A stretch of 64,000 nucleotides of DNA from Candidatus Cryptoclostridium obscurum (lineage in GTDB: Bacteria; Bacillota; Dehalobacteriia; UBA7702), in the NCBI GenBank assembly GCA_904420535.1, contig CAJFVQ010000027.1, positions 1 to 64,000 on the forward strand. Reading direction: 5' to 3'. Below the pieces are notes generated by a model. The model searched no databases. It was not told the origin of the DNA and saw nothing but the letters and a program-made list of their open reading frames with translations. Every line of letters begins with the position of its first letter. The first letter of the stretch is position 1. Below are positions 823 to 6,424 of the stretch, piece after piece. Both the position numbers and the translations under genes were made by a program.

Positions 823-1149
823 TTATTTCTGTCTGTTTTTATAATCATTTCCCCATACTTCCATTGCTTTAATGATGGGACGCATAGATTCTCCTAGTTC
901 GCTAAGGGCGTATTCTACTTTAGGAGGCACTTCCGGATACACAGTACGGGTAATAATCCCATCTTTTTCCATGGAGCGAAGGCTGTCTGTCAATACTTTT
1001 TGGCTAATCCCTTCCAAATCCTTTCTCAATTCATTAAAACGCCAAGGGCGGCTAAGCAAATTGCGCATAATCAGCAATTTCCATTTACTTCCAATCAACG
1101 AAACGGTAGTCGCCACAGGGCAGGCGGGCATTTCTTCTTTAGTCAGCAT
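823..1149 (-). CDS. HxlR-family winged-helix transcriptional regulator
   Basis: CPVATTVSLIGSKWKLLIMRNLLSRPWRFNELRKDLEGISQKVLTDSLRSMEKDGIITRTVYPEVPPKVEYALSELG is a classic HxlR signature; start placed at MLTKEEMPACP (1149), not the longer ORF start. Confidence 0.92.
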   Translation of the reverse strand: MLTKEEMPACPVATTVSLIGSKWKLLIMRNLLSRPWRFNELRKDLEGISQKVLTDSLRSMEKDGIITRTVYPEVPPKVEYALSELGESMRPIIKAMEVWGNDYKNRQK

Positions 1150-1227: not shown

Positions 1228-1268
1228 GTCACAAAAAAGTGACTCAGTAATAAAAAAGTGCGTACTTG
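1228..1268. promoter_or_regulatory. Candidate operator in the HxlR / peptide divergent region
   Basis: GTCAC-A6-GTGAC inverted repeat (1228-1243) and repeated AAAAAAGTG (about 1233-1241 and 1252-1260), then AAGTGCGTACTT. Confidence 0.4.
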
Positions 1269-1346: not shown

Positions 1347-1487
1347 ATGGCACTTTCTAATCTGTTTGGATGGAAGAAAAAACTGGAGTCAGCCCCGTCT
1401 GCTTGCGGTTCCGCGTGCGGCGCTGGGGACAAACCTGAGGAAAAACCCACCGCTTGCGGTTCCGCATGCGGCGCTGGGGACAAATAA
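1347..1487 (+). CDS. ACGX-repeat RiPP precursor-like peptide (46 aa)
   Basis: RBS GGAGG at 1334-1338; ATG 1347; translation MALSNLFGWKKKLESAPSACGSACGAGDKPEEKPTACGSACGAGDK*; two identical ACGSACGAGDK repeats immediately upstream of a radical SAM/SPASM gene. Confidence 0.88.
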   Translation: MALSNLFGWKKKLESAPSACGSACGAGDKPEEKPTACGSACGAGDK

Positions 1488-1502: not shown

Positions 1503-1528
1503 GATCCCGGCGGGTTCCCGCCGGGATC
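1503..1528 (+). promoter_or_regulatory. Strong intra-operonic hairpin between peptide and radical SAM genes
   Basis: Perfect 12-bp inverted repeat GATCCCGGCGGG-TT-CCCGCCGGGATC; no poly-T tract; second small IR CCGAATT-C-AATTCGG at 1530-1544. Confidence 0.8.
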
Positions 1529-1576: not shown

Positions 1577-2608
1577 ATGAAACAATATTTTGCCTTCCAG
1601 TGGCACATTACCGATGAGCGCGACCAGCGTTGCAAACACTGCTACATTTTTTCGGAAAATAACTGTAAAAAGCCAGATGCCATGAATTGGCGTCAAATGC
1701 AAGATACCTTTTATAACTGTCTGGATTTTTGTGAAGTATATCACCGTCTCCCCTACTTTTATATTACTGGCGGCGATCCGATTTTGCACCCTGATTTCTG
1801 GAAGCTCCTCAACTTAATGAAACAACACAATATCCCCTTCACCATTTTAGGCAATCCCTTTCACTTAAACGATGAAGTTTGTCACAAGCTAAAAGACTAC
1901 GGTTGCGAAAAATATCAACTTTCACTGGATGGAATGCGTAGAACTCATGACTGGTTCCGCAAACCCGGCAGCTTTGACATTACTTTAGAAAAAATCAAAT
2001 GTATTAATCGTGCCGGTATCCGCAGCGTTATCATGACCACCGTTTCTGGTACAAATATTGACGAAATACCGGATATCATAGATACTGTCGTCAAAGCGAA
2101 AGCCAATGTATTTGCTTTCGCCCGCTACTGTCCCACCAGTGAAGAAAAAGATGTCAATATCGATCCACTGCGCTATCGTAAACTGCTGGCCGATTGCGAT
2201 AAAAAATTTCAAGCATACGAAACGAAAGGTTGTCAGACCTATTTTAACAAAAAGGATCATCTTTGGACTTTATATGAATATGAAACCGGCGCTTTTAAGA
2301 TACCCGAAACAGTAGAGGAAGGCATGATTTATGGAGGCTGCAATTGCGGTAACTGCCACTTGACAATTCTACCCACCGGCGATATTTTTGCCTGTCGGCG
2401 GGTACAAAACAGCAATGTCGGAAACGTATTTGAGGATCGCTTGGCCGATATTTGGGTCTGCCAAATGGAGCAATACCGCAATTACCAAAAATTTGAGAAA
2501 TGCTCCAAATGCCAGCTGCTGGCATGGTGCCGTGGTTGCCCTGCGGTAGCTAGTGGAAGGGACGGCAATTTTTATGCAGCAGATCCCCAGTGCTGGAAGG
2601 AGGCTTGA
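1577..2608 (+). CDS. Radical SAM/SPASM peptide maturase-like protein with degenerate cluster motif (RDQRCKHC)
   Basis: WHITDERDQRCKHCYIF near the N-terminus, TGGDPILHPDF, and C-terminal SPASM cysteines (CGNCHLTILPTGDIFACRR...CSKCQLLAWCRGCPA). First Cys of CxxxCxxC is Arg (CGC at 1619-1621). Confidence 0.9.
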   Translation: MKQYFAFQWHITDERDQRCKHCYIFSENNCKKPDAMNWRQMQDTFYNCLDFCEVYHRLPYFYITGGDPILHPDFWKLLNLMKQHNIPFTILGNPFHLNDEVCHKLKDYGCEKYQLSLDGMRRTHDWFRKPGSFDITLEKIKCINRAGIRSVIMTTVSGTNIDEIPDIIDTVVKAKANVFAFARYCPTSEEKDVNIDPLRYRKLLADCDKKFQAYETKGCQTYFNKKDHLWTLYEYETGAFKIPETVEEGMIYGGCNCGNCHLTILPTGDIFACRRVQNSNVGNVFEDRLADIWVCQMEQYRNYQKFEKCSKCQLLAWCRGCPAVASGRDGNFYAADPQCWKEA

Positions 2609-3189
2609 TGATGGAGCTTTTGGAACTCATGAAATATCGTCGATCAATCCGCAAATATCAAAAGAAACAAATTGAACGTGACGCCTTGCAAAAAATCATT
2701 GAAGCAGGATTGTACGCCCCTAATGCCGGAGGTGGTCAGCGTACTTTCATCTGTGCCGTCCGCGATCAAAGTTTGTGTGAAAAGATTGGGAAACTTAATC
2801 TCGCCCGGTTTGACAGGTCGAGATTGGCAGGCTCTCATGTTTCGAACGATCAACCCAGCAATATTGATGATCCGGCAATCAAAAGCGGATTTTACGGTGC
2901 CCCTACGGTTTGTGCGATTTTTGCCCCGAAAAATTTCTTCTATAGCATTCCAGACGCTTTTTGCTGTGCTGAAAATATGGTGCTTGAAGCAACGGAACTC
3001 GGTATCTCTTCCTGCATCATTGCCAGGGGCGAAGAAACTTTTGACAATGAAATAGGCAGTCGGTTGTTAGAAACATGGAAAATCCCTCAAAACTATATTG
3101 CCAGATGCTTTGTACTGCTTGGTTACTGCAACGGTAACTATCCCCAGGCAAAGACTAGAAAAGAGGGCAGATATAGAATTATTGGCTAA
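2608..3189 (+). CDS. Nitroreductase family protein
   Basis: MELLKYRRSIRKYQKKQIERDALQKIIEAGLYAPNAGGGQ... FMN nitroreductase signature; ATGA overlap with the upstream gene. Confidence 0.9.
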   Translation: MMELLELMKYRRSIRKYQKKQIERDALQKIIEAGLYAPNAGGGQRTFICAVRDQSLCEKIGKLNLARFDRSRLAGSHVSNDQPSNIDDPAIKSGFYGAPTVCAIFAPKNFFYSIPDAFCCAENMVLEATELGISSCIIARGEETFDNEIGSRLLETWKIPQNYIARCFVLLGYCNGNYPQAKTRKEGRYRIIG

Positions 3190-3204: not shown

Positions 3205-4090
3205 ATGGGGGCAGAACAGAGCGCTCATTTTAAGGTTGATAAATCGAAATGTATTCAATGTGGAAAATGCATCGACAGCTGTTCCGGCATGGTAATTGCC
3301 TTTGGAAGCGATGCCTTCCCAAAGATCAAAGAATTTGAACGGTTTGGCTGGAGAGGTTGTTGGAGGTGTCAGCATTGTCTTTGCGTGTGCCCTACGGGCG
3401 CAATCTCTATCTTCCATAAACACCCGGAGGACTCTTTATCCCCTCCTCCTCTAGAAATGGGTGAATATATGGAACGGCTTATCGTGAACCGCCGTTCTTG
3501 TCGACGGTATTTGGATCAAAACGTAGAACCTTGGGTGGTCTCAAAAATTCTAAACGCCATGGCAGCGGCACCCACAGGAGGTAATGCCTGCAATGTAGAA
3601 TACACTGTCATTGACGATAAAAATAGGGTCAAGGACATTTGGCAAATTGCCTACGCCACAATGGAAGCAAAGGCAAAAAAAACACGTGTATACTCACAGT
3701 TTCAACGATTTTTATTATGGAAAAATGAAACAATCCGAAAAGACCGTGAGGAAAGACGATCTGCTATTTTGCGGCGCCCCCCATCTTTTTATCGCTCACG
3801 CAAAATCTACAGGACAATGGGCAGAGGATAACAAAACGAACTGCCACATCGCTACTACCTATTTTGAACTCCTTTGCAACGCCTACGGCCTTGGTACAAT
3901 CATCATGAGTTATCCGGCCGAGGTACTTAATGAACTTGCCCCCGAAGCCAGAAAAATGCTCGAAATTCCCGACGATCATTATACCGGACTGATCGTGGGC
4001 TTCGGCTATCCTGAAATCAAATACGTAAGAGGTGTCCAAAAAGACAGAAGCTCAAAAATACACCGCTATTCTAACAGAAACAGCACTTGA
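3205..4090 (+). pseudogene. Ferredoxin-nitroreductase fusion (2x 4Fe-4S + nitroreductase), frame disrupted
   Basis: ORF 3205..3831 carries CIQCGKCIDSC...CQHCLCVCP and the nitroreductase N-half; ORF 3611..4090 in the +1 frame carries the C-half (ATTYFELLCNAYGLGTIIMSYPAE...). Frames switch around the A8 tract at about 3675-3682. Confidence 0.8.
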
Positions 4091-4184: not shown

Positions 4185-4808
4185 ATGGATGTAAAAACAT
4201 GTTTGCAAAAATTACAGTATGTAGGCGTCCTGGCTTTTGCCACCGTAGATGAGCAGGGAACCCCCCAGGTACGCAATATCAGCGCTATTCATTATGAACC
4301 CGATGCTATCTATTTTTTTACCGCAAGGGGTAAAAATTTCTGCAAAGAACTTTTAGCAGACGGACGTGTTCAAATACTCGGATATACGAAATACAAGGAA
4401 ATGATCCGTCTATCGACAAAAGCTGTGCCTGCACCCCAGGATGAACAAAGAAAATGGATGGATACTATTTTTGCCGAACAACCGTATTTATCCAACGTGT
4501 ATAACGTGTATCCGGGAGAAACAAAAGAGATTGGCATTATTTTTGAAATTAAAGACGGAGAAATTGAATATTTTAATCTCGGAGTTCATCCTATTTTTCG
4601 GCAAAGCTACTCCATTGGGGAAGGGACCATCACGCCGAAAGGATATGAAATTACAGACGCATGTACAGGTTGTGAAATTTGCATCAATAACTGTCTACAA
4701 AACAGCATTGTTTCAGGGCAACCTTTCCAAATAAGACAGGAACATTGCCTGCATTGCGGAAACTGTTATGAAAATTGTCCAGCTGAGGCAATTATAAGGA
4801 GAGGATAA
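4185..4808 (+). CDS. Pyridoxamine 5'-phosphate oxidase-fold flavoprotein with C-terminal 2x[4Fe-4S] ferredoxin domain
   Basis: GVLAFATVDEQGTPQVRNISAIHYEPDAIYFFTARGKNF; C-terminal CTGCEICINNC and CLHCGNCYENCP; RBS GGAGG before ATG 4185. Confidence 0.85.
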   Translation: MDVKTCLQKLQYVGVLAFATVDEQGTPQVRNISAIHYEPDAIYFFTARGKNFCKELLADGRVQILGYTKYKEMIRLSTKAVPAPQDEQRKWMDTIFAEQPYLSNVYNVYPGETKEIGIIFEIKDGEIEYFNLGVHPIFRQSYSIGEGTITPKGYEITDACTGCEICINNCLQNSIVSGQPFQIRQEHCLHCGNCYENCPAEAIIRRG

Positions 4809-4809
4809 C

Positions 4810-5604
4810 ATGACACAGAAGGAAAGAAGGCTGTTTCTGATCCAATCATTGCTTCTCGAGCAGCAACATGATCGGGATATAGAGATTCCCAAAGAGGATG
4901 AAGCGCAAAAAAATCTGCTTCGCTCTCTATTTAACATCCGTATGCCCAATCCGGTCAGCAAAGAATTCCTGGCGATACAAGATGCTTATTTGCAGGAGGA
5001 AATCAGACGAAAGGGAATCACCGAATTTGCTGATCTGCAACCCATTCAAAATAATATTTATCTTTGGCAGGGCGATATCACCACCCTGCGCTGTGACGCG
5101 ATCGTAAATGCCGCCAACAGCCAAATGTTGGGATGCTTCGTCCCCTGCCACAGCTGTATTGATAACTGTATCCACACCTATGCCGGCGTGCAGCTGCGGT
5201 CGGTCTGTGCGGAACGAATGCGTAAACAAGGACATGAAGAAAAAATAGGAACAGCCAAACTAACACCGGCGTACAATTTGCCGTGTCAATACGTATTGCA
5301 TACCGTTGGCCCTGTCATTTACGGAAGGGTCACAAATAAGGATAAGGAATTACTTGCTTCTTGCTACCGTTCCTGCCTTGAACTTGCCGAACAAAATGGA
5401 ATTACCAGTATTGCGTTCTGTTGTATCTCCACGGGAGAATTCCATTTTCCCAACAACAAAGCAGCTGAAATTGCAGTGCAGACAGTAAAACATTTTAAAG
5501 AGCAGACAAGCAGCAAAATTGAGGTGATTTTTAATGTTTTCAAGGACACCGATTACAAAATCTACAGAGACTTACTGGCGACAAATAAAAAAGTTAAACA
5601 ATGA
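4810..5604 (+). CDS. Zn-type macrodomain protein (protein-ADP-ribose hydrolase, SirTM-associated class)
   Basis: CDAIVNAANSQMLGCFVPCHSCIDNCIHTYAGVQLR... macrodomain with the Cys/His metal-binding insertion. Confidence 0.92.
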   Translation: MTQKERRLFLIQSLLLEQQHDRDIEIPKEDEAQKNLLRSLFNIRMPNPVSKEFLAIQDAYLQEEIRRKGITEFADLQPIQNNIYLWQGDITTLRCDAIVNAANSQMLGCFVPCHSCIDNCIHTYAGVQLRSVCAERMRKQGHEEKIGTAKLTPAYNLPCQYVLHTVGPVIYGRVTNKDKELLASCYRSCLELAEQNGITSIAFCCISTGEFHFPNNKAAEIAVQTVKHFKEQTSSKIEVIFNVFKDTDYKIYRDLLATNKKVKQ

Positions 5605-6424
5605 ATTAGAAGCTGCAGATGCCGTAATTATAGGCGCCGGGGCCGGTCTTTCCACTTCGGCAGGCTTTGCTTACAACGGAGAGAGATTCCATCGATACTT
5701 TGGGGATTTTGAAGAAAAATATGAATTTCATGACATGTATACCGGCGGTTTTTATCCTTTTGCAACATTGGAGGAACACTGGGCATACTGGAGCCGTTTT
5801 ATCTATTACAATCGCTACGTTGATCCACCAAAATCTACTTATCAGGACTTGCTTTCACTGGTGAAAAATAAAGACTATTTCGTCATTACCACCAATGTTG
5901 ACCATTGCTTCCAAAAAGCAGGGTTTGATAAAAAGCGTTTATTTTATACCCAAGGCGATTATGGACTTTTTCAATGTAGCGAACCATGCTGCCATGAAAC
6001 TTTTGAAAATGAAACCATCATTCATCGTATGATGGCGCTGCAAAAAGATATGCGCGTACCTACTGAGTTGTTGCCACTGTGCCCACATTGCGGAAAGCCC
6101 TTGACCATGAATCTCCGCTCCGATGACAAATTTGTGGAAGATGAAGGATGGCACATTGCGGCGGAGCGTTATGGAAACTTTTTACGAACAAGAAAAAATC
6201 TAAGGATCTTATTATTAGAACTAGGCGTAGGGTACAACACCCCTATCATTATTAAATATCCCTTCTGGCAAATGACTATGGAGAATCATAAAGCGATCTA
6301 TGCTTGCATCAATTATAATCAGGCAGTCTGCCCAAATGAAATTAGACATCGCGCAATCTGCATCAATAGTGATATTGGAGAAGTGTTACAACAAATAAAA
6401 TCGCAAAATCAAATTAAAATATAA
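5534..6424 (+). CDS. Class M sirtuin (SirTM), Sir2-family putative ADP-ribosyltransferase
   Basis: VIIGAGAGLSTSAGFAYNGERFHRYFGDF, VITTNVDHCFQKAGF, FYTQGDYGLFQCS (Gln in place of the usual catalytic His-Gly); GAGGTGA RBS at 5521-5527; overlaps the macrodomain gene by 71 nt. Confidence 0.92.
   Translation: MFSRTPITKSTETYWRQIKKLNNELEAADAVIIGAGAGLSTSAGFAYNGERFHRYFGDFEEKYEFHDMYTGGFYPFATLEEHWAYWSRFIYYNRYVDPPKSTYQDLLSLVKNKDYFVITTNVDHCFQKAGFDKKRLFYTQGDYGLFQCSEPCCHETFENETIIHRMMALQKDMRVPTELLPLCPHCGKPLTMNLRSDDKFVEDEGWHIAAERYGNFLRTRKNLRILLLELGVGYNTPIIIKYPFWQMTMENHKAIYACINYNQAVCPNEIRHRAICINSDIGEVLQQIKSQNQIKI

Follow-up and report, generated by a model that had tools for sequence, protein, structure and literature searches.

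A short open reading frame with internal repeats, lying directly upstream of a gene for a radical SAM/SPASM protein in Candidatus Cryptoclostridium obscurum, raises the question of whether it is a genuine gene and, if so, what its small cysteine-containing product does. The window, meaning the whole stretch of DNA analysed, covers 64,000 nt (assembly GCA_904420535.1, contig CAJFVQ010000027.1, positions 1-64,000), and the two genes at issue are the following.

1347..1487, plus strand: acgA, ACGX-repeat peptide of 46 aa (NCBIfam TIGR04341, 54.5 bits against a cut-off of 28).
1577..2608, plus strand: acgM, radical SAM/SPASM protein of the ACGX system, with Arg for the first Cys of CxxxCxxC (TIGR04340; alignment of 84 enzymes).

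Identity of the Peptide Gene

The gene acgA is genuine and of a kind already known and named in databases, as follows from the matches of both window proteins to TIGR04341 and TIGR04340, well above the curated cut-offs, and from the annotation of acgA and acgM in a plasmid record of Roseburia sp. 831b, where the operon has a gene order similar to that of the window cassette. The peptide aligns over its entire length with TIGR04341 ("ACGX-repeat peptide", E=1.4e-14), its TIGR04340 partner is encoded 89 nt downstream and scores 595.1 bits (cut-off 400), and the cassette is present in a single copy in the window genome; a Pfam search of the peptide returned no matching family. Since NCBIfam already curates the family and NCBI's pipeline PGAP gives the name acgA to an orthologue, the description of the frame as unannotated and missed, made in an earlier note on this DNA, does not hold for the family. 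The frame itself is borne out: the translation is confirmed exactly (MALSNLFGWKKKLESAPSACGSACGAGDKPEEKPTACGSACGAGDK, 46 aa and a stop), with a leader beginning MALSNLFGW followed by two exact 11-aa repeats (ACGSACGAGDK) and four Cys in total, and the ribosome binding site claimed for it is present as GGAGG at 1334-1338, 8 nt 5' of the ATG, with a similar site in 65 of 66 loci. A search of the accessible literature located no paper on the chemistry, role, expression, modification or phenotype of ACGX peptides, and the family, although curated and named, thus appears to be uncharacterised.

Conservation among Relatives

A single scan of species genomes yielded 427 relatives of AcgM, the best 80 of which are mostly 81-89% identical to it and carry titles mostly of Lachnospiraceae, Oscillospiraceae and other Clostridia. 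A readable upstream AcgA-like peptide having a start and a leader defined a set of 66 loci (window included), and their agreement, together with the TIGR04340 neighbour, supports the earlier proposal of a conserved precursor peptide partnered with a radical SAM enzyme; lack of conservation in related genomes, together with lack of translation, had been named there as grounds for abandoning the gene, and the small frame is in fact conserved upstream of the enzyme. Within this set, L3, L6 and W9 of the leader are invariant (L-x-x-L-x-x-W), while the number of Cys ranges from 2 to 15, which is the variation in repeat number that the earlier note had proposed to look for. The Cys context is nearly constant, with Gly following in 448 of 452 cases and Ala preceding in 421 of 452. 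Different codons encode the repeated Ala, Cys and Gly, and repeat units of a single gene that agree in every amino acid can disagree at as many as 7 of 24 nt; such silent variation between identical units implies that selection acts on the protein. The argument had originally been drawn from the window alone, where one silent difference in 33 nt makes no case against a recent duplication, but the purifying selection that it invoked is evident across the relatives.

In an even sample of the phylum, the enzyme was found in 6 of 299 genomes and a peptide above the TIGR04341 cut-off in 5 of 299, all five with the enzyme, the peptide of the sixth being readable by eye. In several loci a full peptide is missing simply because the contig stops at that point, and the repeat array may favour contig breaks at the peptide gene. 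The peptide genes of four loci (L066, L079, L093 and L095) appear to carry a frameshift or a truncation inside the repeats, suggesting that AcgA may be dispensable.

Regulator and Noncoding Elements

Three further features occupy the DNA around the peptide gene.

823..1149, minus strand: divergent HxlR/DUF24-type regulator with an N-terminal Cys, ACPVATTV (PF01638, 110 bits).
1239..1267, no strand assigned: conserved promoter/operator-like motif, GTGACTCAGTAAT...AAAAAGTGCGTACTT, 79 nt 5' of the peptide start.
1503..1528, plus strand: intercistronic hairpin, GATCCCGGCGGGTTCCCGCCGGGATC, conserved across loci in shape and not in sequence.

The divergent regulator is found in 48 of the 59 loci with enough DNA, and its relatives conserve the N-terminal Cys in a CPVATTV-type N-terminus, which would place it with the HypR/YodB type; against the model of the redox regulator RrpB (NF047364) it scores 118.4 bits and does not reach the cut-off of 175. 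For the HxlR relatives HypR, YodB and CatR, an N-terminal Cys is the means by which HOCl, quinones and diamide are sensed, and the nitroreductase YodC belongs to regulons of this type (PMC6943732). The likeness to these Bacillus regulons thus lies in the HxlR fold, the N-terminal Cys and the nitroreductase-type flavoenzymes under control; they differ in that the consulted passages of that source mention no ACGX peptide, and sensing and DNA binding by the window regulator are predicted. On the two strands of 1.38 Mb of DNA the sequence AAGTGCGTACTT was counted 22 times, in every case between regulator and peptide and approximately 80 nt before the peptide start, and a looser form is present in 59 of 66 loci, making the motif at 1239-1267 a candidate promoter/operator and a putative binding site of HxlR.

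The stem of the hairpin between acgA and acgM averages 13.2 bp, compared with 8.2 in shuffled controls, and 48 different stem arms are seen among 62 loci. A second small inverted repeat, TCGGTcataCCGA, lies at 1538-1555 of the window, before the AcgM start, and many relatives show comparable CTCGGT...ACCGA repeats.

Downstream Redox and ADP-Ribosylation Genes

Five further genes follow acgM.

2608..3189, plus strand: nitroreductase-family flavoenzyme (PF00881, 77.7 bits).
3205..4090, plus strand: ferredoxin-nitroreductase fusion, frameshifted near an A8 run at 3675-3682 (PF00881 and Fer4 in two frames).
4185..4808, plus strand: protein with a PNPOx-like flavin-binding domain and a 4Fe-4S ferredoxin (PF01243 and Fer4).
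4810..5604, plus strand: Zn-Macro ADP-ribosyl hydrolase (Zn-loop and D-x3-H motifs; 8rsi, E=7e-82).
5534..6424, plus strand: SirTM, class M sirtuin of the ADP-ribosyltransferase type with a QG motif (5a3a, E=2e-71).

The Zn-Macro protein carries its C-x4-H-x-C Zn-loop as CFVPCHSC and its D-x3-H motif as DNCIH, and the SirTM has QG in place of HG (TQGDYG) and is encoded by a gene overlapping that of the linked macrodomain. Of the 54 loci whose downstream DNA extends to 4 kb or more, a nitroreductase or zinc-type dehydrogenase is found in 51, the PNPOx-ferredoxin protein in 36, SirTM in 35 and the macrodomain in 20. None of the genes that recur in the cassette loci codes for an exporter, a leader peptidase or an immunity protein, and none of the common neighbours is a recurrent metal transporter or metalloregulator.

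SirTM and AcgM share genomes more often than chance would predict: SirTM is present in 4 of the 6 genomes that have the enzyme and in 13 of all 299 (hypergeometric p=3e-5, with phylogeny ignored). The strong claim that SirTM exists for AcgA is weakened by seven SirTM loci examined in genomes devoid of AcgM, six of which have a macro partner and none of which has an ACGX enzyme nearby. Since SirTM and macro are also found apart from ACGX genes, and are absent from an archaeal copy of the cassette (see below), they are accessories of it. In the plasmid cassette of Roseburia, SirTM is followed by a DUF1848 gene (L130, 11001-11942), with similar proteins in the same region of L044, L076, L088 and L096. 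In one genome lacking AcgM (G009; L138, 1390-4699), SirTM lies near an HxlR 69% identical to the cassette regulator, perhaps a cassette remnant.

Proposed Function

The cassette is read here as a cytoplasmic system for thiol and electrophile stress with a radical-SAM-modified peptide, and not as a bacteriocin locus. Taken whole, the reading of acgA as an ACGX precursor that is induced by stress, modified by AcgM and used as a cytoplasmic redox or metal thiol carrier for the neighbouring oxidoreductases is given somewhat better than an even chance. We infer the induction of the operon, the modification and chemistry of AcgA and its carrier role in the following terms. The thiol-switch regulator of HxlR type would induce the operon under thiol or electrophile stress, with the intercistronic hairpin setting the ratio of peptide to enzyme; AcgM would bind the AcgA leader and modify the ACG motifs repeat by repeat. 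The product would remain in the cytoplasm, where it is placed because the cassette holds no exporter or peptidase, and the mature peptide would act as a redox-active or metal-binding thiol carrier for the adjoining flavin/ferredoxin oxidoreductases. Where present, SirTM and Zn-macro may place this stress response under a further switch based on ADP-ribosylation.

SirTM/macro operons have been tied to oxidative stress in other systems (PMC4518038, PMC11490716), and the sole known target of SirTM/Zn-macro is lipoylated GcvH-L (PMC11490716). In the extended operon of Staphylococcus and Streptococcus (GcvH-L, LplA2, macro, SirTM, LLM and OYE), SirTM and Zn-macro stand beside flavin oxidoreductases, as they do in the cassette, and both operons contain a thiol-bearing element, whereas the cassette has, in place of GcvH-L/LplA2 and the lipoylated carrier, a Cys-repeat peptide and a radical SAM protein; the likeness is a functional analogy only. 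All genes between 1347 and 6424 have an assignment, and no lipoyl carrier or ligase (GcvH-L, LplA2) is among them; the GcvH domain PF01597 is absent from 5 of 9 cassette-bearing genomes searched, and in the window genome it matches only part of a 1160-aa frame located on a different contig. It may be, as a long shot, that the mature ACGX peptide replaces lipoyl-GcvH-L as redox carrier and that SirTM reversibly ADP-ribosylates it or the maturation machinery, the action of SirTM on AcgA being speculative; if true, the peptide would be a thiol cofactor of a new sort, made on ribosomes and controlled by ADP-ribose. The cassette would thereby offer a candidate answer to the question left open in PMC11490716 of what SirTM/Zn-macro target where there is no lipoylated GcvH-L.

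What is new here is the conserved context, comprising the HxlR with its Cys, the promoter motif, the hairpin, the flavin/iron-sulfur oxidoreductases and, often, SirTM/Zn-macro. As a peptide discovery the case is ordinary; the redox setting and the possible SirTM link lend it moderate interest, and the conserved setting opens ACGX peptides to testing as a redox-stress system of many gut Clostridia.

Horizontal Transfer and State of the Window Copy

The window AcgM is 83-88% identical to the enzymes of L033, L052, L066, L076 and L093, the RpoB of which is only 65-70% identical to that of the window genome, while two genomes of the same class with RpoB at 74-79% have enzymes at 72-73%; this discordance points to horizontal transfer. 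Copies are also found on large plasmids of Roseburia, Subdoligranulum and the archaeon Methanosphaera, and together these comparisons indicate that the cassette spreads horizontally, including on megaplasmids and into a methanogen. A search of AcgM for phage carriage gave no match. The archaeal copy (Methanosphaera sp. ISO3-F5, plasmid pNP174; L131, 6140-9024) retains HxlR, the ACG peptide, AcgM and a dehydrogenase, and SirTM/macro are absent; its peptide scores 12.9 bits, under the TIGR04341 cut-off, and has different spacers, and since what it keeps is limited to the ACG repeats and an L-x-SW leader, ACG appears to be the working unit. The radical SAM gene of this plasmid cassette is annotated in two pieces.

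In the window, residue 15 of AcgM (codon 1619-1621) is Arg where all 83 aligned relatives have the first Cys of CxxxCxxC, and it is the protein's sole departure from columns at least 95% conserved in the alignment of 84 enzymes. The [4Fe-4S] motif by which a functional radical SAM enzyme is recognised is thus broken; if this is no sequencing error, the window AcgM has probably lost its activity. Co-expression of the window pair, which had been suggested as a check, might yield no modification, as this AcgM copy has lost the catalytic Cys.

There is an even chance that the window cassette is a decaying, non-functional acquisition in which the peptide goes unmodified: besides the Cys15 change and the signs of acquisition, the ferredoxin-nitroreductase is frameshifted, the same fusion being intact in L052, L067, L076 and L083. 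The frames of the peptide, nitroreductase, PNPOx-ferredoxin protein, macro, SirTM and HxlR are nevertheless all intact, and both lesions may be errors of a draft assembly.

Alternative Assignments of the Peptide

The earlier note leaned towards AcgA being a secreted or surface RiPP of a radical SAM enzyme, namely a sactipeptide- or ranthipeptide-like antimicrobial or signal with Cys thioethers. A small Cys-rich precursor adjoining a radical SAM/SPASM enzyme is indeed the layout of sactipeptides such as ruminococcin C (PMC6779426), and the best solved relative of AcgM by sequence is the RiPP maturase SkfB. SkfB also comes first in a fold search, which says little, because the structure predicted from a shallow alignment is weak (pLDDT 62.9, C-terminal domain not resolved). 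The assignment is unlikely given the lack of any recurrent exporter, leader peptidase or immunity gene and given a conserved neighbourhood made up of redox enzymes and a regulator of thiol-switch type; for the former reason a bacteriocin is rejected.

A metal-binding or metal-buffering peptide, similar to metallothioneins or bufferins and with ACG modification tuning its metal affinity, is improbable as well. The regularly spaced Cys, up to 15 in number, would suit it, as would the next-best model of AcgM, SbtM (TIGR04082), labelled as thio(seleno)oxazole modification, since metal binding is described for thiooxazole peptides that other enzymes produce (PMC12668002). The SbtM model aligns over nearly the whole of AcgM, but at 153.9 bits the match is far under the cut-off of 350, and the common neighbours include no recurrent metal transporter or metalloregulator.

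The AcgM copies of L096 (6001-7116), L074, L083, L088 and L094 have in-frame insertions of roughly 25-38 residues.
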